Below, piece after piece: positions 26,432 through 39,823 of a stretch of 64,000 bases of DNA (the stretch's first letter is position 1; each line of letters starts with the position of its first letter). Both the position numbers and the translations under genes were made by a program. The notes under the pieces are model-generated. The model was not told the DNA's origin and ran no database searches. It was given only the letters and a program-made list of their open reading frames with translations. The DNA comes from Cyclobacteriaceae bacterium (GTDB lineage: Bacteria > Bacteroidota > Bacteroidia > Cytophagales > Cyclobacteriaceae). The stretch is from the NCBI GenBank assembly GCA_026129485.1, contig JAHCHY010000011.1:1-64000 (forward strand), in the 5' to 3' direction.

Positions 26432-26510
26432 TTTTGTGTAACAATTGTCCTAAAAATGTAATTATCTCCTGTTTTGTGGAAATCAATGCTCATTTTTTCT
26501 CACAAAGTCA

Positions 26511-26549
26511 ACGGGTTTTTTCACGTATTTAATACGTGAAAAAACCCGT
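26511..26549. promoter_or_regulatory. Perfect 19-bp-arm palindrome
   Basis: Arms 26511-26529 and 26531-26549 are exact reverse complements around one central T. Each contains ACGGGTTTTTTCACGTATT or its complement. It lies between the truA start and the C39 exporter start, 35 bases before the latter. It could be a hairpin that attenuates exporter expression, a terminator for upstream readthrough, or a protein-binding site. Confidence 0.6.
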
Positions 26550-26584
26550 AGTGCTGAATATGCTTGAAAATGTATGTTTGGCGC

Positions 26585-28810
26585 ATGGCTTTCCCCGCAT
26601 TTAAGCAGCTCGACCAGATGGACTGCGGCCCTACGTGCCTGCGCATGGTGGCCAAGCACTATGGTCGCCATTATCCCCTGCATGAGCTAAGGAACAAATC
26701 CTTCATTACCCGCGAAGGTGTTTCGCTGTTAGGCATCAGCGATGCGGCTGAGGCAATCGGCTTTCGTACACTGGGTGTAAAAATACCTTTTGACAAATTG
26801 CAAAAAGATGCCGTGCTGCCCTGTGTGGCGCACTGGCACCAGCGCCATTTTGTAGTCATTTACAAAATCACCAACAGGCAGGTTTTTGTGGCCGACCCTG
26901 CGGCAGGGCTGGTGAGTTATACCCATGAAGAATTTAAGAAAGGGTGGCTGTCAGCCAAAGAAAACGGGCACGAAAACGGAGTAGCCTTGTTGTTGGAACC
27001 TACTCCTGAATTTTATGAACGCGAGCCGGAAGCAGCTAAGAATAAACGTAAAAGCTTAACCTACCTGCTGGGCTACCTGGTGCAGCACCGGAGGTTTATT
27101 GTCCAGTTGATCCTGGGCCTGCTTGCCGGGAGCATCATTCAGTTAGCTTTGCCTTTCTTAACCCAGTCTATTGTAGATGTAGGCATCAACACCCAAAACA
27201 TTCAATTCATTTACTTAGTGCTGGCCGGGCAGTTTGTGTTGTTTTTAAGCAGGCTTTCAGTTGATTTCATCCGCAGGTGGATTTTATTGTACCTGAGCAC
27301 ACGGATTAATATCGCGATCATTTCCGATTTTCTGATCAAGCTCTTCAAGCTTCCGATGCCTTTTTTTGAGGGGAAAATGATTGGCGATATTCTTCGCAGG
27401 ATTGAAGACCATACGCGCATCGAGCGTTTCCTTAGCACGTCATCGCTCAATATCCTGTTTTCACTTTTTAACCTCGTCATCTTTGGCGTGGTGCTGGCAA
27501 TTTATCATGTGCCCGTCTTCCTCGTGTTCTTTGGCATGAGTGCGCTCTACGTGTTGTATGTGCTGGTGTTTTTAAAGAAACGTGCCGAGCTGGACTACAA
27601 GCGCTTTCAGCAGATGGCCGATAACCAAAGCAACCTGATACAAACTGTACAGGGCATGAGCGAGATCAAGATGAACAACTGCGAAACGCAAAAGCGGTGG
27701 GAATGGGAGCGCATACAGGCTAAGCTGTTTCACATCAATGTGCAGTCCACCCGGTTGCAGCAATTCCAGGATGCCGGAAGCTTGTTCCTGAACGAATCCA
27801 AGAACATGATTATTACGGTGATGGCTGCGTTAGCCGTAATGAGTGGCGACATGACGTTGGGCATGATGCTGGCTGTGCAATACATCATTGGCCAGCTTAA
27901 TGCGCCTGTCAATGAGTTTATCGGGTTTACACGCGATTTTCAGGATGCGAAAATTAGTTTGGAACGAATTGGAGAAATACACTCCGTAGAAAACGAAGAA
28001 AACCTCACCCCTGGCCCCTCTCCGGACTTGTCCACCGTAGCTTTAGCGAATGTGGGGGAGAGGGACTTTAAAGCTTCGATTATTGTAAAGAATCTTTCCT
28101 TCCAATACGAAGGCCCAAACTCTCCTAAAGTTTTAGATGAAATTGATCTGGTTATCCCGGAAGGGAAAGTAACGGCCATAGTAGGCGCGAGTGGCAGTGG
28201 TAAAACCACGTTAATGAAGTTGTTGCTGAAATTTTACAAACCGCAAGCGGGTAAGATTGAGTTGGGGGGCGTTCCGTTAGAGAATATACATGCTTCCACC
28301 TGGCGGCAGTGCTGCGGCACGGTTATGCAGGATGGCTTTATTTTTTCCGATACTATTGCCCGCAACATTGCGCTGGGCGATGAAGAAGTGGATTACAAAA
28401 AGCTGCTCCATGCCGTTACCGTGGCCAACATTAAAGAGCATATTGAATCCTTACCGCTCCGCTACAACACCAAAGTGGGTGCCAACGGTATTGGCTTAAG
28501 CCAGGGCCAGAAGCAACGGCTGCTGATTGCCCGCGCGGTTTATAAAGACCCTGAGTATCTCTTTTTTGATGAAGCCACCAGCGCGTTGGATGCCAACAAC
28601 GAGAAGGTGATTATGGAAAACATGGATCAGTTCTTTAAAAGTAAAACTGTTCTGGTAATTGCCCACCGGCTGAGCACGGTAAAAAATGCCCACCAGATTG
28701 TGGTGCTGGAAAAAGGGAAAATTACAGAAATAGGTACACACGAAGAATTAACTGCGGCCAAAGGCCGATATTTTGAGTTGGTGAAAAACCAGTTAGAGCT
28801 TGGTAATTGA
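26585..28810 (+). CDS. Peptidase C39-domain ABC exporter
   Basis: A 741-residue inner-membrane exporter that cuts double-glycine leaders and exports the released peptides. The C39 triad is complete: Cys14 in QMDCGPTC, His88 in QRHFVVIY and Asp104 in VADPAAG. Membrane helices span about 155-440. The nucleotide-binding domain has Walker A GASGSGKTT near 533, signature LSQGQ near 638, Walker B YLFFDEAT and H-loop AHRLST. ATG 26585 is chosen because it gives the standard short N-terminus. Oddity: residues about 473-494 are encoded by a dispersed palindromic DNA repeat. Three GG-leader peptides downstream are the obvious cargo. Confidence 0.94.
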   Translation: MAFPAFKQLDQMDCGPTCLRMVAKHYGRHYPLHELRNKSFITREGVSLLGISDAAEAIGFRTLGVKIPFDKLQKDAVLPCVAHWHQRHFVVIYKITNRQVFVADPAAGLVSYTHEEFKKGWLSAKENGHENGVALLLEPTPEFYEREPEAAKNKRKSLTYLLGYLVQHRRFIVQLILGLLAGSIIQLALPFLTQSIVDVGINTQNIQFIYLVLAGQFVLFLSRLSVDFIRRWILLYLSTRINIAIISDFLIKLFKLPMPFFEGKMIGDILRRIEDHTRIERFLSTSSLNILFSLFNLVIFGVVLAIYHVPVFLVFFGMSALYVLYVLVFLKKRAELDYKRFQQMADNQSNLIQTVQGMSEIKMNNCETQKRWEWERIQAKLFHINVQSTRLQQFQDAGSLFLNESKNMIITVMAALAVMSGDMTLGMMLAVQYIIGQLNAPVNEFIGFTRDFQDAKISLERIGEIHSVENEENLTPGPSPDLSTVALANVGERDFKASIIVKNLSFQYEGPNSPKVLDEIDLVIPEGKVTAIVGASGSGKTTLMKLLLKFYKPQAGKIELGGVPLENIHASTWRQCCGTVMQDGFIFSDTIARNIALGDEEVDYKKLLHAVTVANIKEHIESLPLRYNTKVGANGIGLSQGQKQRLLIARAVYKDPEYLFFDEATSALDANNEKVIMENMDQFFKSKTVLVIAHRLSTVKNAHQIVVLEKGKITEIGTHEELTAAKGRYFELVKNQLELGN
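28003..28065 (+). repeat. In-frame dispersed palindromic repeat inside the exporter gene
   Basis: CCTCACCCCTGGCCCCTCTCC (from 28003) and GGGGGAGAGGG (28054-28064) form an inverted pair. The part between reads, on the minus strand, FAKATVDKS. Translation gives LTPGPSPDLSTVALANVGER, a phrase typical of repeat-derived protein inserts. It occupies the loop between the membrane and ATPase domains and does not break the frame. Confidence 0.65.
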
Positions 28811-28862
28811 TGAAGATGATGTGATTTGAATTTTGAACCTCAAATTTTAAATTGATAAGCTT

Positions 28863-29183
28863 ATGAGCTTGATAGATTTTGAACGGCTTGAACGGATGCA
28901 CGACCTGATTTGTCGCAGGGCAACCGGAACACCCGATACGTTTTCTGAAAAGCTGGGTATCAGCAAAAGTATGCTGATGGTCAACCTGGCCCAGTTGAAG
29001 GAAAGGGGCGGGCCTATCCGGTACGACCTACTTAGCCAAACGTATTATTATACCCGGCCCTGCCGGCTGGTTTTTGGGTATGAAATAGACAAAGATGTGA
29101 TGGGTCAGGTTAAAGGCGGGGAAAATATTTTTGAAAAAAGACTCATTCCAATCTCATTAGAATGGGGTTTTGCAGGTTTGTAG
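28863..29183 (+). CDS. Small helix-turn-helix protein with unusual C-terminal extension
   Basis: A 106-residue protein. Residues about 5-75 form a winged HTH of a kind common beside Bacteroidota peptide exporters (LERMHDLICRRATGTPDTFSEKLGISKSMLMVNLAQLKERGGPIRYD, then YYYTRPCRLVFGYE). It is a candidate regulator of the island. After residue 75 the chain runs into sequence encoded by the repeated leader element and contains DVMGQVKGG, which resembles a double-glycine cleavage site. Whether the tail is native or the result of fusion to the repeat is open. Confidence 0.65.
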   Translation: MSLIDFERLERMHDLICRRATGTPDTFSEKLGISKSMLMVNLAQLKERGGPIRYDLLSQTYYYTRPCRLVFGYEIDKDVMGQVKGGENIFEKRLIPISLEWGFAGL

Positions 29184-29237
29184 GGCAGGGGGCTTGAACC
29201 CATGCCGCGGATACCGAAAAGCGAATGAGTAGGTAAC
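29109..29237 (+). promoter_or_regulatory. Conserved leader element, copy 1
   Basis: First of three related segments of about 125 bases. Shared landmarks are TTAAAGGC, CATTCCAATCTCATTAGAATGG, TTTTGCAGGTTTGTAG, a G-rich/C-rich hairpin around CTTGAACCC, and CCGCGGATACCGAAAAGCGAA. Its first half also encodes the end of the HTH gene. It ends 21 bases before peptide gene 1. It is likely an RNA leader or promoter region. Confidence 0.55.
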
Positions 29238-29258
29238 TTACTTTGTAAATCTAATTTT

Positions 29259-29498
29259 ATGAAAATTGCTAACTTCGTTCAATTTAAAATTGAAGATGAA
29301 AAACTCAAAAACATCAAAGGTGGGATGGAAATCTGGTGTTCGGTAAATGTAGGGTTTCCTGATGGATCTGGTTTTGTGAACATTGGTCAATGTTCAGGAA
29401 GTACTACTGAAGATTGCAGTAATTATGGTTCTACTCTTTGTAATTCTTACATGGGTGGCATGGGTGCAACTTCTTGTGAAGTTGTATGTACAGCATGA
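29259..29498 (+). CDS. Double-glycine-leader Cys-rich peptide 1
   Basis: A 79-residue precursor. The leader is 22 residues (KIEDEKLKNIKGG at its end), matching C39-processed leaders with hydrophobic positions before GG. The 57-residue core begins MEIWCSVNVG, is rich in Gly and Ser, and has six Cys (near residues 27, 46, 54, 62, 74, 78), enough for three disulfides. It lies directly behind leader copy 1 and is followed by a strong hairpin. Likely exported by the C39 transporter; bacteriocin or signalling roles are both possible. Confidence 0.75.
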   Translation: MKIANFVQFKIEDEKLKNIKGGMEIWCSVNVGFPDGSGFVNIGQCSGSTTEDCSNYGSTLCNSYMGGMGATSCEVVCTA

Positions 29499-29524
29499 TA
29501 TTTACTCAATGAATTTATGATTGG

Positions 29525-29595
29525 ACATCTCAATCACCTACGATGCTTATATTTTCACTTAACAACAAGCAAGTGGTGATTGAGATGTTCTTTTT
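29525..29595 (+). terminator. Hairpin with T-run after peptide gene 1
   Basis: A perfect 14-bp stem (29525-29538 ACATCTCAATCACC against 29575-29588) with a 36-base loop is followed by TTCTTTTT. It lies between peptide 1 and the thioredoxin gene, so it could stop most transcripts and keep peptide mRNA in excess. Confidence 0.6.
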
Positions 29596-29683
29596 AAATT
29601 TTAAAATACTTATGTAACCGTAATACAATCTCACTATTGAAACCTCAAATTAGATACGTTAATCAAGACCAGAGTTTATAGTT

Positions 29684-31090
29684 ATGCGAATTTTGTACTT
29701 AATAATATCCCTTATTTCATCCTGTAGTTTTTTTTGCTCTGCGAATTCATCCACGATCGTTATAGACAATGAAAGTGATTTTAAAGCTTTTGGTTTTTTC
29801 TATAGTGATAGATTTAATGATGTCAAGAATTCATTAATGGTAAGGCAAAAGGATTTAGCAGGTAAATATTTAAACCGCTATGTCATTACTACTGATGCGC
29901 CTTTAGTGGTTGTATTCACTAATGGTGGTATTATGAATGGTTATCCGGTCTTACTCTATCCAGGTGATACTTGTCGTGCATATAATGGGGAACATGGTTT
30001 TGTTTTTCGAAGTAACAATCATGGGGTTGGCGATCTGGCAATTCTCAACGAGATGGAACAGGCACATGGCTTTGTTATACCTGAAAATTTGGGGCTCACC
30101 ATTAGCAATCGGCTGGATGTAATGTATATAGTTGAACGTATTAACACTACGTACTTAAACAGAAGGCGATTTATTTTAGAGTATCAAAAGAAACAGACTG
30201 TTTCTGACGAATTTAAAATCGCAATAGAAAAACTCATTCACCAAAAGTATGTTACAAGCCTGCTTTTTCCTGTTTATGCAGGTCAGGATTCGGCTGGATA
30301 TGATTTTGAAAACCTTCCGCCTGAGTATCATACTATTCTCAAAAAGGAAATTGAAGGCGCGTTCGATGATTCTCAGATACATTCTCAATCATATCAATTA
30401 GTACTTTGGAACTACTGTAAATACCTGTCCAGAAATTCACTAAACACAAAAGAAGAATTTGTTTCTATGTTTAGGAACGCAAAAAATCATTTTTCCGGTA
30501 AGTCCAGAGAGTTTTTAATGTTTCTTATTCTTAAAAAATATACCGGCAAAGGATTACCTGATTTTCAGCATAATGCAGAAGTATTTTTGAGTGAATATCC
30601 TGAATCGGACTATAAAAAGTACTTGATTCGTTTAATACCCAGTGAGCTGACAAATGATATGATCGCATTGTCAGAAGAAAAATTAAGTACCTACAGAGAT
30701 ACTGATGTAACATGGAAAGAGATTTTAAATTCATACAAAGATAAAATTATCTATATTGATTTTTGGGCCAGTTGGTGCAAACCATGCATTCAAGAAATGC
30801 CCCATTCAGATAGATTACGTGATTCATTAAATGCTAAGAATATTATATTTCTGTATGTATCTGTAGATCAAAAGAAAGATGCATGGGTAAGAGCAGTAAA
30901 TAAACAGAGATCAAGTACAGACCAACATTTTCTGTTTCAAGGTAATTCACAGCTCAAAACCCTGTTTGCTTTACAGGCTATTCCGAAATATATTATTGTT
31001 GATAAGAGGGGAAATATATTTTCACCTGATGCACCGCGCCCGTCTGACCCACGCCTTAAGGAAGTATTGGTGAAATTGTTGAATGAATGA
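29684..31090 (+). CDS. Exported TlpA-like thiol-disulfide oxidoreductase
   Basis: A 468-residue protein with an N-terminal export signal; ISSC at residues 11-14 is a possible lipobox. Residues about 30-330 have no recognisable family. The C-terminal thioredoxin domain carries FWASWCKPC (Cys365 and Cys368) and the cis-proline stretch LQAIPKYIIVDKRG. Its place between Cys-rich peptide genes suggests it handles their disulfides or protects the producer. Its last 22 codons are duplicated downstream (32851-32919). AT-rich composition matches the rest of the island. Confidence 0.8.
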   Translation: MRILYLIISLISSCSFFCSANSSTIVIDNESDFKAFGFFYSDRFNDVKNSLMVRQKDLAGKYLNRYVITTDAPLVVVFTNGGIMNGYPVLLYPGDTCRAYNGEHGFVFRSNNHGVGDLAILNEMEQAHGFVIPENLGLTISNRLDVMYIVERINTTYLNRRRFILEYQKKQTVSDEFKIAIEKLIHQKYVTSLLFPVYAGQDSAGYDFENLPPEYHTILKKEIEGAFDDSQIHSQSYQLVLWNYCKYLSRNSLNTKEEFVSMFRNAKNHFSGKSREFLMFLILKKYTGKGLPDFQHNAEVFLSEYPESDYKKYLIRLIPSELTNDMIALSEEKLSTYRDTDVTWKEILNSYKDKIIYIDFWASWCKPCIQEMPHSDRLRDSLNAKNIIFLYVSVDQKKDAWVRAVNKQRSSTDQHFLFQGNSQLKTLFALQAIPKYIIVDKRGNIFSPDAPRPSDPRLKEVLVKLLNE

Positions 31091-31301
31091 ACATGATTTC
31101 GGTGCCTAATATGATTATGCGGTCTTGGCAGGTTGCAAGCTGGTGAAGATACCAACTTGAGCGGAGGACAGGGTGCCATGAGCAAGATTAAAGGCTGGAA
31201 ATATTTTTATAAAAAATGGTCATTCCAATCTCATTAGAATGGGATTTTGCAGGTTTGTAGAGCGGGGTCTTGAACCCCTGCCGCGGATACCGAAAAGCGA
31301 A
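31022..31301. repeat. 280-bp direct repeat, copy A
   Basis: Ungapped match to 32851-33130 with about eight differences. It starts within the last 23 codons of the thioredoxin gene and runs through the spacer into leader copy 2. With copy B it brackets peptide gene 2 and the following gene, so the 1.8-kb unit could be lost or amplified by homologous recombination. Confidence 0.9.
31133..31237 (+). CDS. Possible miniature GG-type peptide (copy A)
   Basis: A 34-codon TTG-started frame. A short acidic stretch (MQAGEDTNLSGG) is followed by a basic aromatic tail (GAMSKIKGWKYFYKKW). The pattern mimics a tiny GG-leader peptide. It lies in the duplicated repeat and has no independent support; it may equally be the end of a lost gene. 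Confidence 0.2.
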   Translation: MQAGEDTNLSGGQGAMSKIKGWKYFYKKWSFQSH

Positions 31302-31312
31302 AGAGTAGGTAA
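31187..31312 (+). promoter_or_regulatory. Conserved leader element, copy 2
   Basis: Nearly identical to copy 3 and clearly related to copy 1, which has one extra base in its first third. It contains the hairpin GGGGT-CTTGA-ACCCC (31264-31278) and ends 18 bases before peptide gene 2. Confidence 0.55.
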
Positions 31313-31330
31313 TCTTTTTTTCTGAAAATT

Positions 31331-31600
31331 ATGAGAAACAGGCTTATTAATTTTAAAGAATTTGAACTAAGTTCAACTGAACAAACCAGGATTTATGGAG
31401 CAAGCGATTTGTCTTATTGCTCAACTGCTTATGCAATCCGTTCATGTAATCAACTTGATAGCGGAGCAATGCAAGGGTGGAGCTATGGTTGGGCAGCAGG
31501 GGGCTGTTCGGTTTACTCTGGGGCTCAACTCTGGAATGCTGCCGCTGCACAGAGCATTCCTATGGATGGTAGTTGTGATACAGGATGGCTTATCTATTAA
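31331..31600 (+). CDS. GG-type-leader Cys-containing peptide 2
   Basis: An 89-residue precursor. The 24-residue leader ends FELSSTEQTRIYGA, so the cleavage site would be Gly-Ala, an accepted variant. It shares FK-FEL with peptide 3. The 65-residue core is Gly-, Ala-, Ser- and Trp-rich with four Cys (near residues 30, 39, 59 and 82) and an aromatic end (GWLIY). It lies inside the cassette bracketed by the 280-bp repeats. It is unrelated in core sequence to peptides 1 and 3. Confidence 0.68.
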   Translation: MRNRLINFKEFELSSTEQTRIYGASDLSYCSTAYAIRSCNQLDSGAMQGWSYGWAAGGCSVYSGAQLWNAAAAQSIPMDGSCDTGWLIY

Positions 31601-31615
31601 TGGACAAAATCTAAA

Positions 31616-31631
31616 TCACAATCGATTGTGA
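31616..31631 (+). promoter_or_regulatory. Palindrome between peptide gene 2 and the next gene
   Basis: TCACAATCGATTGTGA is a perfect 16-base palindrome ending 4 bases before the next ATG. As RNA it could reduce translation of the downstream gene relative to the peptide. Confidence 0.45.
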
Positions 31632-31635
31632 GAAT

Positions 31636-32838
31636 ATGAAAATGACCGTCATCCTTTTGATGTTCCAAATAATCTTTAGTCAGGTTAATGGACAGCTGAA
31701 AGGAAAGATAGTAAATGAAGATGGAGAGCCAATAGAAGGAGTTTATATCTTTTCTTACAGGTCGCAATTCAAACACACTTTTTCCGACAGGGAAGGTGTG
31801 TTTGCTATTTATTTTGAAAAAAGAAACACAAACTGCGAGCTGTTGTTTTATTCGGCAAATTATGCTGATACTCTTTTAACGGTTACCCCATCTGATAGCT
31901 TGATTTATCTTAAGTTATCGAAAAGGGCGGCATATGAAAGGCAGCATATCGCAGAAATTGAAGATGCAGGTATTGTTAACGTTGTAGAAAATGCAATTGA
32001 AGATTTATCCAGCAAAGTTCCTACATCTTCCCACCAATTAAGTGCTTTTTTAAGAGTTATTTCTACGAATAAAGGATTTGCTGTTGGTTTAATGGAGGCA
32101 TCAATCCGGATAGACGATCCTGGTTATTCATCTAAAAAACCAGTTGCCATAGTTGTTGATCAGTTAAGGGTAAGTATGTCCCGTGATAGTTCCCTTGTTA
32201 TGCCTGTACGTATCAAGAATCCTTTTATATCATTTAACCCGGTCTATCGGGCGTATGAATCCAGTCATGTACGCTTGATTCGAAAACATGGTACTGTGTT
32301 GAGTTCTTCACGTGATTTTGTTAAAGACACAAATTTTTTCATTGTAAGGCACGTACGCCATGACTCCAATAACTATGTTGAAGTTTATTTTGAAAAGAGT
32401 GCCGGAACTTTTTCTGAGAACGGTTTTCTTAGAATAAATGCCCAAAATAAATCAATAAAAGAATATAAACGAACGTTGTTTACAGATGACGAAGTTATAG
32501 ATGAGATTGAGTTAAAATTAGCAAGACGAGATGATGCTTATTATCCTACATACATTCGTACTTATCAGATTGCTCCTAACCTGATTCCCGGAGTAGGAAA
32601 GACATTCACCTATAACATATCAGAATTGTTTATAGAAAGAAATGATATAAGAACTCATGGTATTCATATTGAACCAAGAGAGCCGATGCCATTTGCCGGA
32701 AGATATGTTTATAACCCAGACTTTTGGGAAAATTATAACATGTTAAAGAAGCACCCGATTTCCGGTGATACGGGATTGCTGTTTATAGAGTGGACAAAAG
32801 ATTCTATGGAAAAAGAATTTATAGCGAATTCAAAATGA
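31636..32838 (+). CDS. Exported protein with carboxypeptidase-regulatory-like domain
   Basis: A 400-residue protein with a signal peptide (cleavage near VNG-Q, residue 19). An N-terminal CarboxypepD_reg-like beta sandwich (GKIVNEDGEPIEGVYIFSYRS to about residue 95) is followed by about 300 residues with no recognised family, rich in beta strands. Such proteins are usually outer-membrane or surface associated in this phylum. The gene is 35 bases after peptide gene 2, within the repeat-bracketed cassette. Processing, surface anchoring or self-protection are possible roles; none is shown. Confidence 0.6.
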   Translation: MKMTVILLMFQIIFSQVNGQLKGKIVNEDGEPIEGVYIFSYRSQFKHTFSDREGVFAIYFEKRNTNCELLFYSANYADTLLTVTPSDSLIYLKLSKRAAYERQHIAEIEDAGIVNVVENAIEDLSSKVPTSSHQLSAFLRVISTNKGFAVGLMEASIRIDDPGYSSKKPVAIVVDQLRVSMSRDSSLVMPVRIKNPFISFNPVYRAYESSHVRLIRKHGTVLSSSRDFVKDTNFFIVRHVRHDSNNYVEVYFEKSAGTFSENGFLRINAQNKSIKEYKRTLFTDDEVIDEIELKLARRDDAYYPTYIRTYQIAPNLIPGVGKTFTYNISELFIERNDIRTHGIHIEPREPMPFAGRYVYNPDFWENYNMLKKHPISGDTGLLFIEWTKDSMEKEFIANSK

Positions 32839-32850
32839 AACTCAATTTTC

Positions 32851-32919
32851 TCACCTGATGCACCACGCCCGTCTGACCCACGCCTTAAGGAAGTATTGGT
32901 GAAATTGTTGAATGAATGA
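32851..32919 (+). pseudogene. Orphan 3' end of the TlpA-like gene
   Basis: Twenty-two codons plus stop identical in protein sequence to the end of the gene at 29684 (SPDAPRPSDPRLKEVLVKLL). No start codon or upstream coding part exists. It is a by-product of the duplication. Confidence 0.85.
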
Positions 32920-32961
32920 ACATGATTTCGGTGCCTAATATGATTATGCGGTCTTGGCAGA

Positions 32962-33066
32962 TTGCAAGCTGGTGAAGATACCAACTTGAACGGAGGACAG
33001 GGTGCCATGAGCAAGATTAAAGGCTGGAAATATTTTTATAAAAAATGGTCATTCCAATCTCATTAG
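32962..33066 (+). CDS. Possible miniature GG-type peptide (copy B)
   Basis: The same 34-codon frame as at 31133, with one residue changed (NLSGG to NLNGG). Because the whole 280-bp block is a recent copy, the intact frame is not evidence of selection. Confidence 0.2.
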   Translation: MQAGEDTNLNGGQGAMSKIKGWKYFYKKWSFQSH

Positions 33067-33135
33067 AATGGGATTTTGCAGGTTTGTAGACAGGGGTCTT
33101 GAATCCCAGCCGCGGATACTGAAAAGCGAATGACC
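33016..33135 (+). promoter_or_regulatory. Conserved leader element, copy 3
   Basis: Third copy of the leader. It precedes the LolA-like gene rather than a peptide gene; peptide 3 follows that gene immediately. The hairpin here reads GGGGT-CTTGA-ATCCC, still able to pair with one G-U. Confidence 0.5.
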
Positions 33136-33190
33136 AAATTAATTTGTGAGAAAGTTTCAATACTTCTATTTCATAAAACCTCCAATCCAT

Positions 33191-33973
33191 ATGGTAAGAA
33201 GCATTTGTCTTAGCTGTTTCATGTTTATGCCTGTTTTATGGTGTGATGCCTTAGCGAAAAGTCAGATTTTGGCTCAAGATTCGACTCAAGTGATTTTGAG
33301 TCATTATCTAATGACGGCTGGTGGTATGGAAAAGTGGAGAGCCTTGCAAAGTGTTGTTCTATCAATGACCCAGTACCCTAAAGGTGAAAGTGTTATTAAG
33401 ATAGCCTCAATTCATAATGGCCAGGTATATGATCGCTGGATATCTTATTCAAACAACGGAGATTCTTCAACTACATGTTTCAATGGGGATAAATACTGGC
33501 GTCAGGTTAAAGGTGATCCACCAGAATCATTTGATTTTTATGCGCCTGTTTATGCAAAATATGCACGATTAAGTGAGCCAACTTTCATGTTAAATGCAGA
33601 TTCGATTAAGCTTGATGGAACGGTTGAGTTTATCGCAGGAGATAAAAAAGCATTGTGTTATCAACTTGCACTTTATGTTGATGGCAGCCGATATTATAAA
33701 TACATTAATGCAAGCACATACTACCTTGAAGGTTACTCGCGTGGCGAGCCCGGAGATCCGGTAACTTCATTGAATGATTACAGAGAAATTGATGGCTTGT
33801 TAGTTCCGTTTGAAGAGATTACTTATCGAGGGAAGAGTATTGAATCCAGATTTGTTAAAAAAGCGATCTTCTTCAATAAGAATATACCTATGCAAGTCTA
33901 TGATTACCCAAAGGGGTCAACGAATATTATTTCTAATACTTTATTATTTAACTTAATCCAAAAAGACAAATGA
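33191..33973 (+). CDS. Exported LolA-like protein
   Basis: A 260-residue protein with a signal peptide (MVRSICLSCFMFMPVLWCDA). ATG 33191 is preferred to an in-frame GTG at 33146 because it places the hydrophobic signal at the start. The body resembles outer-membrane lipoprotein-sorting (LolA/LppX-like) folds: SHYLMTAGGMEKWRALQSVVLSMTQ near the start and the late stretch YREIDGLLVPFEEITYRG. Such folds carry hydrophobic ligands. It overlaps peptide gene 3 by 4 bases (ATGA), so the two are translationally coupled. Confidence 0.6.
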   Translation: MVRSICLSCFMFMPVLWCDALAKSQILAQDSTQVILSHYLMTAGGMEKWRALQSVVLSMTQYPKGESVIKIASIHNGQVYDRWISYSNNGDSSTTCFNGDKYWRQVKGDPPESFDFYAPVYAKYARLSEPTFMLNADSIKLDGTVEFIAGDKKALCYQLALYVDGSRYYKYINASTYYLEGYSRGEPGDPVTSLNDYREIDGLLVPFEEITYRGKSIESRFVKKAIFFNKNIPMQVYDYPKGSTNIISNTLLFNLIQKDK

Positions 33974-34200
33974 AAAATTTAATCCAATCATTTAAGAGTT
34001 TTGAATTGAAAAGAGGTGAACTAACAATGATAAAAGGTGGTAGCGGTTGCGCGTGTCATCAAGCAGCACCTTATGCGTGTACTGCTGGAGGCTATGTACC
34101 GGGTACAAGTGGCCACTATAATTGTATGGTTGATGTTTATCAAGATTGCTGCAATATGCCTGCTACAGGATGTACTTGTAATCCTGTTAATCCGGGTTAA
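33970..34200 (+). CDS. Double-glycine-leader Cys-rich peptide 3
   Basis: A 76-residue precursor. The 24-residue leader ends FELKRGELTMIKGG, a canonical C39 site. The 52-residue core has eight Cys in the order CAC, C, C, CC, C, C (SGCACHQ, then DCC, then TGCTC), the highest density of the three, enough for four disulfides. Its start codon overlaps the preceding gene by ATGA coupling. A weak hairpin follows, then the VKOR-fusion gene. Confidence 0.75.
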   Translation: MKNLIQSFKSFELKRGELTMIKGGSGCACHQAAPYACTAGGYVPGTSGHYNCMVDVYQDCCNMPATGCTCNPVNPG

Positions 34201-34296
34201 TCTGTATTGCATGACTTGTTTATTTTCAATAAAATAGAAGTCTTACACTTCCATCCTTTATCTTTTTTCGTGCATTTCAAACCAATATTTTAACCC

Positions 34297-35895
34297 TTGA
34301 GAGAAACTTTACTTGATATTATATCAAAGTCATTTCATATTAATGTGTCAAAGGACACTCGTGATAATAATAACCAAAATGCAAGTTCGAGTTTGCTTTT
34401 GCTTTCAGATCAACTGAATGAATGGAGCGTAGATAATTTAGCGGTTAAGCTTCAAAAGGAACAATTATTAGAAATACCCTATCCGGCTATTGCACATCTA
34501 AATACAAATGGCGGAACTTTTGTTGTACTTCAAAAGATAGAAGCTAACTTACTTTATTATGCCTACCCATATATAGGAGCTATTTCGGAAACTATAGAAG
34601 AATTCGATAAAAAATGGACTGGGGTTGTGTTATTAGTTGAAACGAGCGATAAATCTGGCGAGCAAGATTACAAGCAAAAGCACAAACAAGAGATATTTGA
34701 ACAGGTAAGCCTGTATGTGTCAGTATTACTTTTATCCATTTTATGGGCTTTGCCTCTTTTCTTTATCATGTGGTCTGGTATGGCCATTTATCTTTTAAAC
34801 AGCGTTGGGGCGGTGTTGTCTTTTCTGCTTTTTAAGAAGCAGTTTGGATTAAGTAGCGTTACCATAAACTCTTTTTGTAAGATGGGAGCTAAAAGTGATT
34901 GCGATGCAGTGATCAATTCGCCTGCTTCAAAACTGTTCGGGGTTATCCATCTTTCGGAATTGTGCTTCTGGTACTTTGCAGGAAGCGTGCTATCTATTGT
35001 GTTTGGTGTTTTTTCGTCCGTTTCGGTCGCGCCTTTTCTTTTTGCACTTTCAATGCTGGCAACAGGATTAAGTTTTTTTACTGTATATTACCAGGGTGCG
35101 GTTATTAAAAAATGGTGCCCACTTTGCCTTATGGTAACGGCTGTGCTTTGGTTAGAGGCGGGTGTTTATTTGTTATCAATTCCTGAACTTGTAATTAACA
35201 TAAAATCATTTTCAGTTCTGTTTGTAGGGTTTTCATTACCCCTTATTTTCTGGCTGAGCGTACGTAAACGGTTCATCGATTCCTTTAAGCTACCCTCGCT
35301 TCAACGCAACCTAAACAGGTTCTTGCAGAGCGAAAGAATATTTCAGAATACGTTACAGGATCAACCTCATATTGAAACGGGTTTATTTACGCATGAATTA
35401 CAAACCGGTTCACCCGATGCGCCTGTGCAGCTTACGGTAGTCGGTAATCCGCAGTGCGGCCCCTGTGCGTACACTCATGCAGTATTGGATAATTTGAAAA
35501 TATCGTTGGATGAAAAAGTAAACATCATTTACCGGTTTACAGTAAACTCAGGGAAGAAAGGCACTTCTGCTTATCAGGTGCTGGAAACTGTATTTGCCAT
35601 TCAGCAAACAGAATCCAGCGAAAGCGCATTAAGAGCTTTAACGGCATGGTATCAATCCAATAGTAATTTGGAAGGCTGGAAGAAACGTTATGAGCCAAAT
35701 CGCGAACAAGAAAACCCTACGGTAACCCATATTTTAAAGGAGCATGAGCAATGGTGTGCTAAGGTGGCCATACAAAAAACACCCTCACTAATTATAAACG
35801 GGAGAATGCTGCCAGAAGAGTTTTCAGTGAATGACCTGAAGTTCCAGCTTCGCAGGCTGGCTGAAAAAATTACCGAGCCCGAACTAATCTCCTGA
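34297..35895 (+). CDS. C39-like/VKOR/thioredoxin fusion, disulfide-forming membrane protein
   Basis: A 532-residue protein starting with TTG (no ATG is placed to serve). Residues 1-125 resemble a C39 domain that keeps a His-containing segment (IAHLNTNGGTFVVLQ) but has no catalytic Cys. Membrane helices from about 143 form a vitamin K epoxide reductase domain with Cys194, Cys202 and the redox pair Cys274-Pro-Leu-Cys277. A DsbA/thioredoxin-like domain follows with Cys387-Gly-Pro-Cys390 and cis-Pro in KTPSLIING. VKOR-Trx fusions make disulfides in exported proteins, so the neighbouring Cys-rich peptides are the expected substrates. Its 3' end overlaps the convergent HlyD gene by 26 bases. Confidence 0.85.
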   Translation: MRETLLDIISKSFHINVSKDTRDNNNQNASSSLLLLSDQLNEWSVDNLAVKLQKEQLLEIPYPAIAHLNTNGGTFVVLQKIEANLLYYAYPYIGAISETIEEFDKKWTGVVLLVETSDKSGEQDYKQKHKQEIFEQVSLYVSVLLLSILWALPLFFIMWSGMAIYLLNSVGAVLSFLLFKKQFGLSSVTINSFCKMGAKSDCDAVINSPASKLFGVIHLSELCFWYFAGSVLSIVFGVFSSVSVAPFLFALSMLATGLSFFTVYYQGAVIKKWCPLCLMVTAVLWLEAGVYLLSIPELVINIKSFSVLFVGFSLPLIFWLSVRKRFIDSFKLPSLQRNLNRFLQSERIFQNTLQDQPHIETGLFTHELQTGSPDAPVQLTVVGNPQCGPCAYTHAVLDNLKISLDEKVNIIYRFTVNSGKKGTSAYQVLETVFAIQQTESSESALRALTAWYQSNSNLEGWKKRYEPNREQENPTVTHILKEHEQWCAKVAIQKTPSLIINGRMLPEEFSVNDLKFQLRRLAEKITEPELIS

Positions 35896-37129
35896 ACTCA
35901 TAAAAAAATCTTTCTAACAACCTCAGGTCTTCCGTTATGATTTCCGTAGTGCCTGTTAGCTGCTGCTTAAAAGGTATCGCTTTCTTTTGCGAGGTAATGA
36001 GATCGGGCGTGAGCGCAATGCTTACAAAGTATTTCGCTTCGCTGGGAATTTCAGAAACGGATTGAACCGTGCCCCGCAGCAGCCCAAACTGCTCGTAAGG
36101 ATAATTCTGCAACCGGATATTTACCTGCTGGCCTGCTTTTACTTTACCGGAGCCCTGTATGGGAAGTTCAGCACGGGCAATTAGAACCCCCTGGTCAGGT
36201 ATAACAGAGAATAAAGACTTTCCAACTTCCACGTACAAATCGTTTTCTAAAAAACCGAGGTAGGCCACATGGCCGGTAACCGGTGCGGTAAGCAAGTACG
36301 TTTCCTTCCACCTTGCAACCTGGCTGAGCAATTCCTGCCGCGCATTGGCAACACTTAATTTCAGTTTTTGAGCCTGCTCTTCTTTTTGCAGCTCAAGGTT
36401 GGTAACCTGCTGCTGTAACTGGCCGGCTTGCAGCTCGTTGTTGATCAGGCCGGTTTCCAGTGTACGCACATTGCGTTGCTGTTGCAGCCATGCAGTTTTG
36501 GCATTGTTATAATCCAAAGCGGCAGTTACTTTCTGTTCAAACAGGATTGAATCGGTTTTAAATTTCTGTAAGGCTAATTGCAATTCCTGCTTGGCTAATT
36601 GTTGCTGTGCCGTAAGCGACCGGTTCAGCTTCTGGTAAGTGATGAGTTGCCGGTTTAGCTGTTCAATTTGCTTGTCAAATGAGGCTGTTTCGTTAAACAC
36701 GGTAAGATTAACCCGGGCTTGTGTAAATGCCGAGAGGTAGGGTTGCAGATCACCTACAGAACCACCGGGCAAAATTGGTAAGTCGTTTACCGCCTGCTGC
36801 TCTAACTCCAAAACGGCTTGCAGGTTGGTATTGGATTGAACAACAGCAATAATATCTCCGGCATGGCAAGAGGCATTATCCTGCTTTAACAGGTGGATGC
36901 GCCCGCCTGTTCGGGCCACCAGGTTTACCGGTGCCGGTGTGGAGGTAATTACAACAGGTGCGGTAAGCAGGTCAGGGTATTTAATGAACCACGTAACGCC
37001 CAGCATGGTCAGCATAACAATGAAAATTACCGTAATGCCCCAGCGGATCAGTCCACCGGGTATCTGGCCAATAATTTCCTGCACTTCTTCGCTGCGGATT
37101 TCCAAGCCCGGTTTGTTACCTGTTTCCAT
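35870..37129 (-). CDS. HlyD-family periplasmic adaptor protein
   Basis: A 419-residue membrane-fusion protein that links an inner-membrane exporter to the outer membrane. One N-terminal membrane helix (about residues 28-50) is followed by a biotinyl-lipoyl-like half (VNLVARTGGRIHLL), a long coiled coil (about 115-270, many Gln and Leu), the second lipoyl half (LLTAPVTGHVAYLG) and a beta-barrel end (KVKAGQQVNIRLQNYPYEQFG). ATG 37129 is taken; an upstream TTG would add six residues. It is the likely partner of the C39 exporter although on the other strand. No TolC-like gene is in the window. Confidence 0.88.
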   Translation of the reverse strand: METGNKPGLEIRSEEVQEIIGQIPGGLIRWGITVIFIVMLTMLGVTWFIKYPDLLTAPVVITSTPAPVNLVARTGGRIHLLKQDNASCHAGDIIAVVQSNTNLQAVLELEQQAVNDLPILPGGSVGDLQPYLSAFTQARVNLTVFNETASFDKQIEQLNRQLITYQKLNRSLTAQQQLAKQELQLALQKFKTDSILFEQKVTAALDYNNAKTAWLQQQRNVRTLETGLINNELQAGQLQQQVTNLELQKEEQAQKLKLSVANARQELLSQVARWKETYLLTAPVTGHVAYLGFLENDLYVEVGKSLFSVIPDQGVLIARAELPIQGSGKVKAGQQVNIRLQNYPYEQFGLLRGTVQSVSEIPSEAKYFVSIALTPDLITSQKKAIPFKQQLTGTTEIITEDLRLLERFFYEFRRLVRAR

Positions 37130-37267
37130 ATCCTTCCAAAATAACAAGAAAAAAAACCGGTTGAGCCATCCGGCCTTAAAAATAATACTATTTGTTCCGC
37201 AGCATATTATTTGAGATTTTCGTTATTCACATCAATGCCAACAGGCAATTTGTATAAACTTACACAC

Positions 37268-38128
37268 ATGAACCAACCTGCTTTTTACCTGCTGCTGATT
37301 CTTATTTCAAACGTAGCCTTTGCCCAACCCGGAAAAGTGTTAGACAGCGAATCGCTACCCAGCAAAATTCTGGGTGGCAGCCGCAAGTATGCCGTTTACC
37401 TGCCTCCCGATTATGAAACCTCAAAAAGAAGCTACCCGGTTTTGTATCTGTTGCACGGTGCCGGTGATGATCAAACCGGCTGGGTACAGTTTGGTGAAGT
37501 GCTGCACATTGCAGATAAAGCAATTGCCAATGGCACGGCCACGCCTATGATTATTGTAATGCCCGATGCGAAGACCGGGCAGATGGGTTATTTCAACAGC
37601 ATTAAAAATGATTGGCGCTACGAAGATTTCTTTTTTGAAGAATTTATTCCGTACATCGAAAAGACCTACCGGGTAAAAAGTGAAAAGCGGTACCGGGCCG
37701 TGGCAGGCCTTTCCATGGGTGGCGGAGGTTCATTTATGTATGCGCTGCACCGTCCCGAAATGTTTTCATCCGCTTGTCCGTTAAGCGCTTATGTAGGGCC
37801 ACTCACCATCGATGAACTTAAAAGCTTTCTTGGCCGTACCAATACGAAGGCTACCGATGCCGAGCTGGAAACCTATTTCAAAAAACATAATGCCATCAAT
37901 CTCGTAAACGACATTAAAGACGACCAGAAAAAAGCTGTGCGGTGGTATATTGATTGTGGTGATGATGATTTTCTTTACGAGGGCAACTCCCTGATCCATA
38001 TAGCCATGAAGAAAAAAGAAATTCCGCACGAGTTTCGCGTGCGCGATGGAGGCCACACCTGGACATACTGGCGCACCGCATTGCCTGATGTGCTGCGATT
38101 TGTTTCAGAAGCCTTTCACCAATATTGA
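37268..38128 (+). CDS. Exported esterase (alpha/beta hydrolase, esterase D type)
   Basis: A 286-residue hydrolase with a signal peptide (LLLILISNVAFA). The nucleophile Ser is in AGLSMGGGGSF near residue 159. The acid is likely in CGDDDFLYEG near 236, and the His is in RDGGHTWTYW near 268. It belongs to the esterase D/feruloyl-esterase-like group and its substrate is not evident. It overlaps nothing upstream. The start at 37268 is chosen because the signal peptide begins there. It is 20 bases before the TldD-like gene. Confidence 0.85.
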   Translation: MNQPAFYLLLILISNVAFAQPGKVLDSESLPSKILGGSRKYAVYLPPDYETSKRSYPVLYLLHGAGDDQTGWVQFGEVLHIADKAIANGTATPMIIVMPDAKTGQMGYFNSIKNDWRYEDFFFEEFIPYIEKTYRVKSEKRYRAVAGLSMGGGGSFMYALHRPEMFSSACPLSAYVGPLTIDELKSFLGRTNTKATDAELETYFKKHNAINLVNDIKDDQKKAVRWYIDCGDDDFLYEGNSLIHIAMKKKEIPHEFRVRDGGHTWTYWRTALPDVLRFVSEAFHQY

Positions 38129-38148
38129 TTACTTGTAATTTGAGCTTA

Positions 38149-39822
38149 ATGAAATACATTTTCTTGATTTTAGCGCTGGCAGGTTCAACCTGCCTGCCTG
38201 CGCAGGATGTGCTGCTGGATGTTTTAAAGGAAGAGCTTGGCCGCGAAGTAAAAGAGTTTGCAAAAGTTGAAGCTCCGCCTTATTACCTGGCGTACCGGGT
38301 TAATGATGTGAGCTACACACAAATGGAATCGTCATTCGGAAGCTTGGTACAGTCGTACAGCAACCGCAACCGGTTTTTATTTACAACCGTGCGGGTAGGA
38401 GATTACCAGTTCGACAACACACACCCGGGTGAAGAAACCCGGTGGGGCTATGACGATGCCGGTCCGGGTGGCCGATCCATACAGATTTCTTTGGATGATT
38501 CGCGTGAAGCCATTCGGTATTCCGTTTGGCGCGTAACCCAAAACAGCTATAAGCAGGCGCGCGAAAAGCTGAAGTCTTTAAAGAATAGCCCGGCCGGTGC
38601 AAAAGCTAAATATGCTGATTTTTCGAAAGCCACTGCCGAGCAGTATTACGAAGCCCCCCTGCCGGCCAATTGGTTTAACGCTGATGAATGGCAGGAAAAA
38701 ATACGCAGGTATTCAGCTCCTTTTCAGAAAAATGCCGACATGGTTTCGGGCGATGTGAGCCTGCAGTTGGTGAGTGAACGAAAATATTTCGTTTCGTCAG
38801 AAGGTACCAGCGTGGTGCAAAATCAACGGTATGTGTACCTGATGATCAATGGAAACATTCGGGCAAAAGATGGCGACATTGTGCCGCTGCATAAATCGTT
38901 CTTTGCATTTAGCCCGGAAGGGTTACCTGGCGATGAGGTAGTATTGCGCGAGGTTGATAAGCTGATAACTATTCTAACCAGGCTAAAAGACGCGCCCTTA
39001 GCCGAGCCTTATACCGGGCCTGCCATATTAGATGCACAGGTAGCGGGTGTTTTCTTTCATGAAATTTTCGGGCATCGCGTGGAGGGTGAACGCTTACGCA
39101 ACGATATGGACAGCCAGACATTCAAGGAGAAAATCGGGCAACCGGTTTTAAACAAAAACCTGAGCGTGATCTTCGATCCTTCATTAAAAGAATTTCAGGG
39201 TAAGCCACTCAACGGTTTTTATAAATATGATGATGAAGGCGTAAAAGGACAGCGCGTGGTGGTGGTGGATAATGGTATCCTGAAAACATTCCTGATGTCG
39301 CGCACCCCGCTTGAATCTGTAAAAGTATCGAATGGCCATGGCCGGGCCGATGCCAGCAGCAACCCGGTATCTCGGCAATCCAACCTGGTTGTGGAGGCCA
39401 CTAAATCCGTTACGTTTCAGGATCTGAGAAAGATGCTGGTACAGGAAGCTAAGAAGCAAGGTAAATCGTATGGCTATTATTTTAAAGATGTGGTGGGCGG
39501 CTTTACCACCACCGACCGGTTTAACCCGAATGCGTTTAATATTTTTCCTACCGAAGTATACCGCGTTTACACGGATGGCCGACCCGATGAACTGGTGCGC
39601 GGTGTTGACCTGATCGGAACCCCGCTGGCTATGTTTGCCGAGATAACAGCAGCCGATAAGCAGGCAGCTATCTTCACAGGCTTCTGCGGAGCGGAGTCGG
39701 GCAGCGTTCCGGTTACGGCTATTTCACCTTCGTTGTTTGTGCGGAGAATTGAAACCCAGAAGAAACCGCAAACCGATATTGAATCTACTGTTTTGAAAAC
39801 TCCAACTGTTAACGAATACTGA
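38149..39822 (+). CDS. Exported TldD-like metallopeptidase
   Basis: A 557-residue protein of the TldD/PmbA family. The zinc motif HEIFGH (HEXXXH) is near residue 304, and the further conserved Cys in TGFCGAESG is near 512, so it should be catalytic. Unlike E. coli TldD it has a signal peptide (KYIFLILALAGSTCLPAQ) and must act outside the cytoplasm. It is followed after one base by a zinc-less paralogue, mirroring the TldD/TldE heterodimer that trims peptides such as microcin B17. Confidence 0.85.
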   Translation: MKYIFLILALAGSTCLPAQDVLLDVLKEELGREVKEFAKVEAPPYYLAYRVNDVSYTQMESSFGSLVQSYSNRNRFLFTTVRVGDYQFDNTHPGEETRWGYDDAGPGGRSIQISLDDSREAIRYSVWRVTQNSYKQAREKLKSLKNSPAGAKAKYADFSKATAEQYYEAPLPANWFNADEWQEKIRRYSAPFQKNADMVSGDVSLQLVSERKYFVSSEGTSVVQNQRYVYLMINGNIRAKDGDIVPLHKSFFAFSPEGLPGDEVVLREVDKLITILTRLKDAPLAEPYTGPAILDAQVAGVFFHEIFGHRVEGERLRNDMDSQTFKEKIGQPVLNKNLSVIFDPSLKEFQGKPLNGFYKYDDEGVKGQRVVVVDNGILKTFLMSRTPLESVKVSNGHGRADASSNPVSRQSNLVVEATKSVTFQDLRKMLVQEAKKQGKSYGYYFKDVVGGFTTTDRFNPNAFNIFPTEVYRVYTDGRPDELVRGVDLIGTPLAMFAEITAADKQAAIFTGFCGAESGSVPVTAISPSLFVRRIETQKKPQTDIESTVLKTPTVNEY

Positions 39823-39823
39823 T

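Follow-up and report, generated by a model that had tools for sequence, protein, structure and literature searches.

The closest described system to the one considered here is that of the bacteroidetocins, class IIf bacteriocins of Bacteroidetes that are made with a Gly-Gly (GG) leader and a C39-type exporter (PMC6671954). In that system, deletion of a thiol oxidoreductase attenuated bacteroidetocin activity, a gel shift was consistent with disulfides, and the general disulfide machinery was stated to be absent from Bacteroides (PMC6671954). The locus analyzed in this study lies in a 64,000-nucleotide stretch of DNA from a Cyclobacteriaceae bacterium, the whole of which is referred to as the window. 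The locus shares with the bacteroidetocins its origin in Bacteroidota, small Cys-containing peptides with GG leaders, and a C39 exporter encoded in the cluster. It also encodes a fusion protein in which a C39-like domain is joined to a vitamin K epoxide reductase (VKOR) domain and a thioredoxin domain, and it belongs to a genuine peptide system, found repeatedly across Bacteroidota, whose dedicated enzyme is predicted to form disulfides. The cluster occupies window positions 26585 to 37147; a truA-like pseudouridine synthase gene flanks it on one side and an esterase gene on the other, and its principal genes are the following.

26585..28810, forward strand: C39 peptidase ABC exporter, 741 amino acids (aa); Pfam Peptidase_C39 5e-35, ABC_tran, ABC_membrane.
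29259..29498, forward strand: precursor 1, 79 aa; leader of 22 aa ending NIKGG, core of 57 aa with 6 Cys.
29684..31090, forward strand: TlpA-like thioredoxin, 468 aa, with WCKPC; Thioredoxin_8 4e-13 / AhpC-TSA, residues 348 to 446.
31331..31600, forward strand: precursor 2, 89 aa; leader of 24 aa ending RIYGA, core of 65 aa with 4 Cys.
33970..34200, forward strand: precursor 3, 76 aa; leader of 24 aa ending MIKGG, core of 52 aa with 8 Cys.
34297..35895, forward strand: fusion protein, 532 aa, TTG start; C39-like domain, extra transmembrane (TM) helix, VKOR domain, TM helix, DsbA-like thioredoxin domain.
35870..37147, reverse strand: HlyD-family membrane-fusion adaptor, transcribed toward the fusion gene; HlyD_3 3e-11, TIGR01843 below cut-off.

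An earlier note on this DNA had described an island for exported Cys-rich peptides, and the genes it named (exporter with its triad, TlpA-like protein, fusion, and HlyD adaptor) were all located by Pfam and open reading frame (ORF) analysis where it had placed them. Its three GG-type precursors with 4 to 8 Cys were also recovered, but the leader of precursor 2 ends in GA. The exporter combines ABC membrane and ATPase domains with the Cys-His-Asp triad of a C39 peptidase (Cys14, His88, and Asp104 in the alignment), and it is predicted to cleave leaders after GG/GA and then export the cores.

The best-supported result is the pairing of the fusion enzyme with Cys-rich cargo. Using a strict leader pattern with no requirement for Cys, 106 peptides were found within 6 kb of the fusion in 54 of 79 loci, and 102 of them contained at least 4 Cys. 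Leaders were 22 to 25 aa long in 91/106, and among the 105 cores having at least 2 Cys, the number of Cys was even in 94. For comparison, peptides near C39 exporters accompanied by a fusion were set against those near exporters without one. The first set comprised 43 loci, obtained from 81 stretches (the 79 loci, a second locus of this genome designated L003, and the window) after 38 stretches with no exporter inside them were dropped. The second comprised 38 control loci, from 43 fetched stretches of which 5 without a recognized C39 exporter were dropped; it replaced an earlier control set of 14 loci and 10 peptides, which was too small. At least 4 Cys were present in 65/70 strict-leader peptides near exporters with the fusion versus 3/21 near exporters without it, and such peptides occurred in 30/43 versus 2/38 loci (Fisher P = 8e-10). 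Loosening the leader pattern gave 33/39 versus 7/34 peptides, a smaller contrast that persisted. The island proposed in the earlier note is therefore recurrent, and the fusion goes with the Cys-rich cargo.

The combination of genes was likewise found to recur across Bacteroidota, beyond chance. A scan of named genomes returned 80 loci, 79 of which contained a complete or partial fusion; as read from the record titles, 78 of these come from Bacteroidota lineages and one is named only "bacterium," and the 80th locus is a cyanobacterium with an exporter match only. At least 80% of the query is also covered in seven plasmid records (Spirosoma, Hymenobacter, Emticicia, Aureibacter, and Parabacteroides), in which the protein is named "vitamin K epoxide reductase family protein." The gene set, which the earlier note had regarded as something to be sought in other Bacteroidota, was assessed in the 48 fusion loci that had flanks of at least 8 kb on each side: an exporter was present in 27, leader-type peptides in 36, either in 43, and both in 20, while HlyD was found in 28 and a TlpA-like protein in 14. 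Most loci (43/48) came out in favor of the earlier note on the condition that it had set for refutation. Of the five loci with neither exporter nor peptide, two (L063 and L126) show candidates on listing. In the class, the fusion was detected at E ≤ 1e-30 in 24 of 395 genomes, including the present one, and its distribution in the genus was patchy (9/58 genomes, two of which, G004 and G044, hold partial copies on small contigs). In the present genome, two C39 exporters and two VKOR fusions were found, and a fusion lay close to each of the exporters. The other cluster of this genome (L003, on contig C1) encodes the fusion, three precursors, an exporter, two TlpA-like proteins, and a DUF6625 protein.

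Profile scans of the cluster proteins in the window recognized no lanthionine, cyclodehydratase/YcaO, or radical-SAM enzyme, as the earlier note had stated. Among 60 downstream ORFs scanned out of 90 candidates in the fusion loci, LANC_like and a glycosyltransferase family were each found in 2; among the best 25 of 75 families, neither a YcaO nor a radical-SAM family recurred in at least 2 of the 60. On a Parabacteroides distasonis plasmid (L190, 7860 to 15673), a LanC-family protein and two glycosyltransferases precede the C39 exporter of a fusion cluster, so some members may carry further modifications.

The three domains that the earlier note had recognized in the fusion were confirmed by Pfam (Peptidase_C39 7e-14, VKOR 2e-13, and Thioredoxin_4 2e-8), with the correction that the C39 domain lacks its catalytic Cys. 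Counts of Cys, C39 columns, and hydrophobicity were made on 77 aligned fusions, two of which (L075 and L115) begin at a contig edge. The redox Cys expected of the VKOR-thioredoxin family, namely the loop pair C194/C202, the VKOR CxxC C274/C277, and the thioredoxin CxxC C387/C390, were kept in 77/77, as was the cis-Pro site. The catalytic Cys of the C39 domain, by contrast, was present in 0/77 (13 of these by a gap, two of the 13 at contig edges), and the His and Asp were retained in only 8/77 and 15/77, so that the Cys-His-Asp triad is lost. Consistently, when 73 fusion ORFs were read between stop codons, none held the exporter-type motif DC-G-C. The 39 exporters in the alignment were mostly selected with a motif of which the catalytic Cys is part, and the presence of this Cys in 39/39 therefore anchors the alignment and does not serve as a control. 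A peptidase-dead C39-like domain alongside intact redox Cys is new here. No paper on a C39-like/VKOR/thioredoxin fusion was found in the open-access literature searched.

Canonical VKORs of the Synechococcus type have five helices, with the N terminus at TM1. The AlphaFold2 (AF2) model of the fusion, for which 74 sequences were used, had a mean predicted local distance difference test (pLDDT) score of 92.2 and contained six long helices (residues 125 to 155, 159 to 182, 219 to 240, 245 to 270, 275 to 293, and 302 to 344). These match the positions of six hydrophobic stretches in the aligned family, and we read them as transmembrane. The first of these precedes the start of the Pfam VKOR match at residue 163 and is strongly hydrophobic in 77/77. 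Six membrane spans would put the C39-like domain on the same side of the membrane as the thioredoxin domain. The C39-like domain and first helix match the PCAT1 exporter (PDB 4ry2 and 6v9z), and no signal sequence was evident by eye before the C39-like domain.

In PCAT1, the C39 domain is cytoplasmic. To orient the fusion, a difference score of Lys plus Arg (K+R) was compared with that of 26 control VKORs that belong to other classes of the phylum and gave no sign of a C39-like domain; these came from 30 loci, from which two fusions (L155 and L172), one duplicate (L158), and one locus that could not be analyzed (L151) were removed. The score was negative in 77/77 fusions and positive in 25/26 controls (Mann-Whitney P = 4e-14, uncorrected for shared ancestry). 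In the controls, K and R are concentrated in three regions: the segment preceding TM1, the TM2-3 loop, and the TM4-5 loop. The aligned Synechococcus VKOR, whose structure is known, is likewise basic ahead of TM1 and in the TM2-3 loop. The three regions that are basic in the controls are nearly free of K and R in the fusions (TM2-3 loop mean, 0.18 versus 3.04 in controls), and it is the Cys loop, the approach to the CxxC, and the linker to the thioredoxin domain that are basic. Under the positive-inside rule, basic loops stay cytoplasmic, and the mirrored pattern therefore suggests a cytoplasmic orientation for the active side of the fusion, in the compartment that holds the leader-bearing precursor; a dead C39 domain with a binding function would fit this. 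Judged by its charges and number of helices, the orientation departs from that of canonical periplasm-facing VKORs. The thioredoxin domain most likely lies on the side of the dead C39 domain, in the cytoplasm, and the order assumed in the earlier note, in which peptides are exported and then oxidized, is disfavored by the six predicted helices and the inverted charge. The predicted placement of both domains on one side by an extra helix, with a mirrored charge pattern, is also new here.

The fusion is predicted to be the dedicated disulfide synthase of the peptides, and its architecture points to leader-guided oxidation before export. With a probability of about 0.55, the locus makes small, secreted, disulfide-held peptides, with the fusion acting on them in the cytoplasm under guidance of the leader. 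The precursors would be synthesized with a C39-type leader, which the peptidase-dead C39 domain of the fusion would bind in the cytoplasm without cleaving it. The thioredoxin domain would then oxidize the core cysteines through C387/C390, with electrons passing, by analogy with canonical VKORs, to C194/C202, C274/C277, and finally menaquinone. The leader would next pass to the true C39 exporter and be cut after GG/GA, the oxidized core leaving through the exporter and HlyD, and outside the cytoplasm the TlpA-like protein may edit the disulfides. We give roughly even odds to the broader proposal of a widespread family of cytoplasm-facing, quinone-coupled disulfide synthases, in which a VKOR was flipped by an exporter C39 domain and its first helix, the dead domain captures precursors, and typically two to four disulfides are formed before export, as a leader-guided modification of ribosomally synthesized and posttranslationally modified peptides (RiPPs). 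No description of such a synthase family was found in the open-access literature searched. Judging by their kinship with other GG peptides, the products probably act as signals or as toxins of a bacteriocin-like kind.

Several points weigh against oxidation in the cytoplasm. The cytoplasm would be an unusual place for disulfide formation, and since it is reducing, disulfides made there would need kinetic protection. Binding of the leader is a putative function that the dead C39 fold suggests. The best folds and profiles for the thioredoxin domain are extracytoplasmic oxidoreductases (BdbD, ScsC, and DsbA), and the TlpA-like protein is also compatible with periplasmic redox chemistry. As to orientation, the positive-inside rule is statistical; topology was read from charge, hydrophobicity, and AF2 rather than from a dedicated topology or signal predictor; fusions and controls were scored with slightly different scripts; some of the controls, all of which belong to other classes, are closely related; and the 77 fusions share ancestry, so that 77/77 does not represent 77 independent events. 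The sole exception among the controls, a stand-alone VKOR of about 161 aa without a C39 domain (L165, 1483 to 1968, reverse strand), has an inverted score of -7. The contrast between loci is weaker with the looser leader pattern (21/43 versus 6/38, P = 0.002), and three fully flanked loci (L065, L113, and L133) have neither exporter nor peptide. Topology, peptides, disulfides, and activity are all predictions here.

The main rival places oxidation in the periplasm: the exporter would cut and export reduced cores, which the VKOR-thioredoxin part would then oxidize outside, with the dead C39 domain also outside or with one helix not spanning the membrane. Canonical VKOR-thioredoxin proteins act in the periplasm, and the affinities of the thioredoxin domain in fold and profile are with extracytoplasmic enzymes such as BdbD and ScsC. 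A TlpA-like thioredoxin that is probably exported, judged by eye from a hydrophobic N-terminal signal, is moreover present in the window and in 14/48 fully flanked loci. This arrangement nevertheless requires that an N-terminal domain of about 120 residues cross the membrane with no evident signal, or that a helix hydrophobic in 77/77 fail to span it, and it runs against both the six long helices in AF2 and a charge pattern opposite to that of 25/26 control VKORs. On balance we hold it to be the less likely of the two, with a substantial probability of its own.

Less probable still is that the fusion is a general or quality-control oxidoreductase, serving the exporter or envelope proteins and traveling with the peptide genes, while the cargo Cys serve metal binding, thioethers, or glycosylation. 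LanC-like or glycosyltransferase genes do occur in some clusters, on the Parabacteroides plasmid L190 and the Spirosoma plasmid L191, and among the scanned ORFs at the frequencies given above, and L003 encodes a DUF6625 protein; the tight linkage of the fusion to high and mostly even Cys counts in the cargo, and a window cluster in which no modification enzyme was recognized, argue the other way. The view that the C39-like domain does not bind leaders but cleaves them, as a diverged second peptidase, was rejected as highly improbable: although it is recognizably C39 by Pfam and by its PCAT1 match, it has lost the catalytic Cys in every one of the 77 fusions and the His and Asp in most. Leader-guided oxidation in the cytoplasm is thus the reading preferred here.

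The cluster runs from the exporter through a helix-turn-helix (HTH)-like protein of 106 aa, precursor 1, the TlpA-like thioredoxin, and precursor 2 to a CarboxypepD_reg-like protein, a second secreted-looking protein, precursor 3, the fusion, and the convergent HlyD gene, an order of the last two seen likewise in L062, L063, and L064. The earlier note had not mentioned the HTH-like gene, the two secreted-looking proteins, the direct repeats, or the DUF805b elements, which are listed here.

28863..29183, forward strand: HTH-like protein, 106 aa, directly after the exporter; assigned by eye, no Pfam match.
29120..29236, forward strand: repeat copy 1, before precursor 1; D2/D3 repeats, holding the DUF805b-like element.
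29204..29235, forward strand: DUF805b-like element, 23 nucleotides (nt) before precursor 1; RF02914 30.3 bits, below the gathering threshold of 35.6.
31016..31304, forward strand: copy A of a 289-nt direct repeat (3' end of the TlpA gene plus spacer), 96% identical to 32845-33133.
31280..31311, forward strand: DUF805b cis-regulatory element (Rfam RF02914), 19 nt before precursor 2; 36.0 bits, above the gathering threshold of 35.6.
31636..32838, forward strand: secreted-looking protein with a weak N-terminal CarboxypepD_reg match (PF13620, E 0.011, below cut-off).
32845..33133, forward strand: copy B of the 289-nt direct repeat, before the third cassette.
33191..33973, forward strand: secreted-looking protein, 260 aa; no Pfam match.

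Relatives of the HTH-like protein adjoin C39 exporters both with the VKOR fusion (L071 and L139) and without it (L181, L182, and L183), and the gene therefore belongs with the exporter. No relatives of the 31636..32838 protein were found in the searched loci. For the 260-aa protein, the AF2 model had a pLDDT of 34, and matches of its profile to L003 and L066 were built in by construction; the pairwise scores used instead, against proteins beside fusions, were weak (15.2 bits for a secreted-looking protein in L003, 12.9 in L063, and 7.2 in L066). The L063 protein (13184 to 14458), which resembles it in its N-terminal part, has a C-terminal TlpA-like thioredoxin domain. This similarity hints that proteins of this type work with thioredoxins.

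Copies of a segment of 117 to 289 nt stand in front of precursor 1 (29120), precursor 2 (31016/31197), and the third cassette (32845/33026), and none were found in the genome outside the cluster; besides copies A and B, the 289-nt repeat has only the part-copy at 29107-29236. Because the repeats are confined to the cluster, a mobile element was ruled out, and we read the cluster as having grown through local duplication of precursor cassettes. A structured RNA was also rejected, as the folding z-scores (-0.25, -0.11, and -1.26) were not significant. In the third copy, the DUF805b element is degenerate. A loose pattern of the element gave 22 matches over the window and the fetched loci L062 to L192, and 11 of the 22 are followed by a leader-type ORF: two in the window and one each in L063 (position 12935), L071 (8020), L072 (8844), L085 (4841), L093, L124 (15137), L127 (9740), L135 (9681), and L183. 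In several Bacteroidota, a DUF805b-like element thus lies 18 to 27 nt 5' of leader-type precursor genes. A peptide-specific switch was rejected, however: among genus elements with an ORF 8 to 70 nt downstream, counted in 29 fetched loci, only 5/37 precede a leader-like ORF, one of the five being doubtful. In the genus, the element also stands upstream of many other, often secreted-looking, proteins; it therefore looks like a shared control element and may mark a wider regulon. A literature search on the DUF805 motif gave no result.

Some further observations were made in and around the cluster. At window positions 28003-28072, the exporter carries an in-frame proline-rich insertion, LTPGPSPDLSTVALANVGERD, which, by its resemblance, may be a repeat element inserted into coding sequence. 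A perfect 19-nt inverted repeat at 26511-26549, between truA and the exporter gene, is perhaps a bidirectional terminator, and a mir-137 match at 26503-26556 is probably a chance result of this inverted repeat. A pair of TldD/PmbA-like metallopeptidase genes adjoins the cluster (38125-41467); elsewhere, such proteins process some peptide antibiotics. Membership of a defense system was rejected for four window proteins (best PADLOC E, 0.017), and no viral relative was found in BFVD at E ≤ 0.001.

The fusion gene provides a handle for finding Cys-rich secreted peptides, a single scan having yielded 106 candidate precursors in 54/79 loci. If the enzyme does act in the cytoplasm, the system would raise the questions of how disulfides can be formed where the surroundings are reducing, how one added helix inverted a VKOR, and how a dead exporter peptidase became a substrate-recruiting domain, and it could serve as a tool for making disulfide-rich peptides with common laboratory strains. 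On the conservative reading, too, the system bears on how Bacteroidota produce disulfide peptides, given that the bacteroidetocin account reports no general machinery in Bacteroides (PMC6671954).

Against that account, the locus shows both likeness and difference. No obvious immunity gene is a likeness. The bacteroidetocin clusters have a thiol oxidoreductase gene where the fusion and the TlpA-like protein are found here, a correspondence drawn from description and not from sequence. Bacteroidetocin leaders are 15 to 16 aa long and end after GG, whereas those in the window are 22, 24, and 24 aa, one ending in GA; the cores are 42 to 48 aa, with about four similarly placed Cys in the best-studied ones, versus 57, 65, and 52 aa with 6, 4, and 8 Cys, a comparison of core length and Cys number. 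The window peptides thus depart from the bacteroidetocins in two defining features, the length of the leader and the length and Cys content of the core. Killing of Bacteroidales is a further trait of the bacteroidetocins. The bacteroidetocin region consists of four genes including a 5-TM protein, whereas HlyD, TlpA-like, and other genes are present here; no separate ORF for a 5-TM protein was recognized in 26.5 to 37.1 kb, a comparison made without a bacteroidetocin sequence.

With the canonical VKOR-thioredoxin protein of Synechococcus (PDB 3kp9, 4nv2, 4nv5, and 4nv6), the fusion shares the four-helix core, the loop pair, the CxxC, and the fused thioredoxin, and it differs in its added N-terminal dead C39 domain and helix and in its mirror-image K/R pattern. 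The window exporter belongs with the PCAT1-type exporters, which the fusion resembles in its N-terminal domain and first helix; the fusion lacks the catalytic Cys, and VKOR and thioredoxin domains replace the transporter and ATPase. The topology of the VKOR of Aeropyrum pernix, an archaeon, reportedly promotes disulfide formation in two compartments, to go by the title of a 2017 study by Hibender et al. cited in PMC12453122, which would mean that VKOR orientation can vary; we know of no C39 domain or dedicated cargo for that enzyme. In HlyB-type exporters, a peptidase-dead C39-like domain binds the substrate without cutting it. There the dead C39 fold is joined to an ABC exporter, whereas in the present family it is joined to a redox enzyme.

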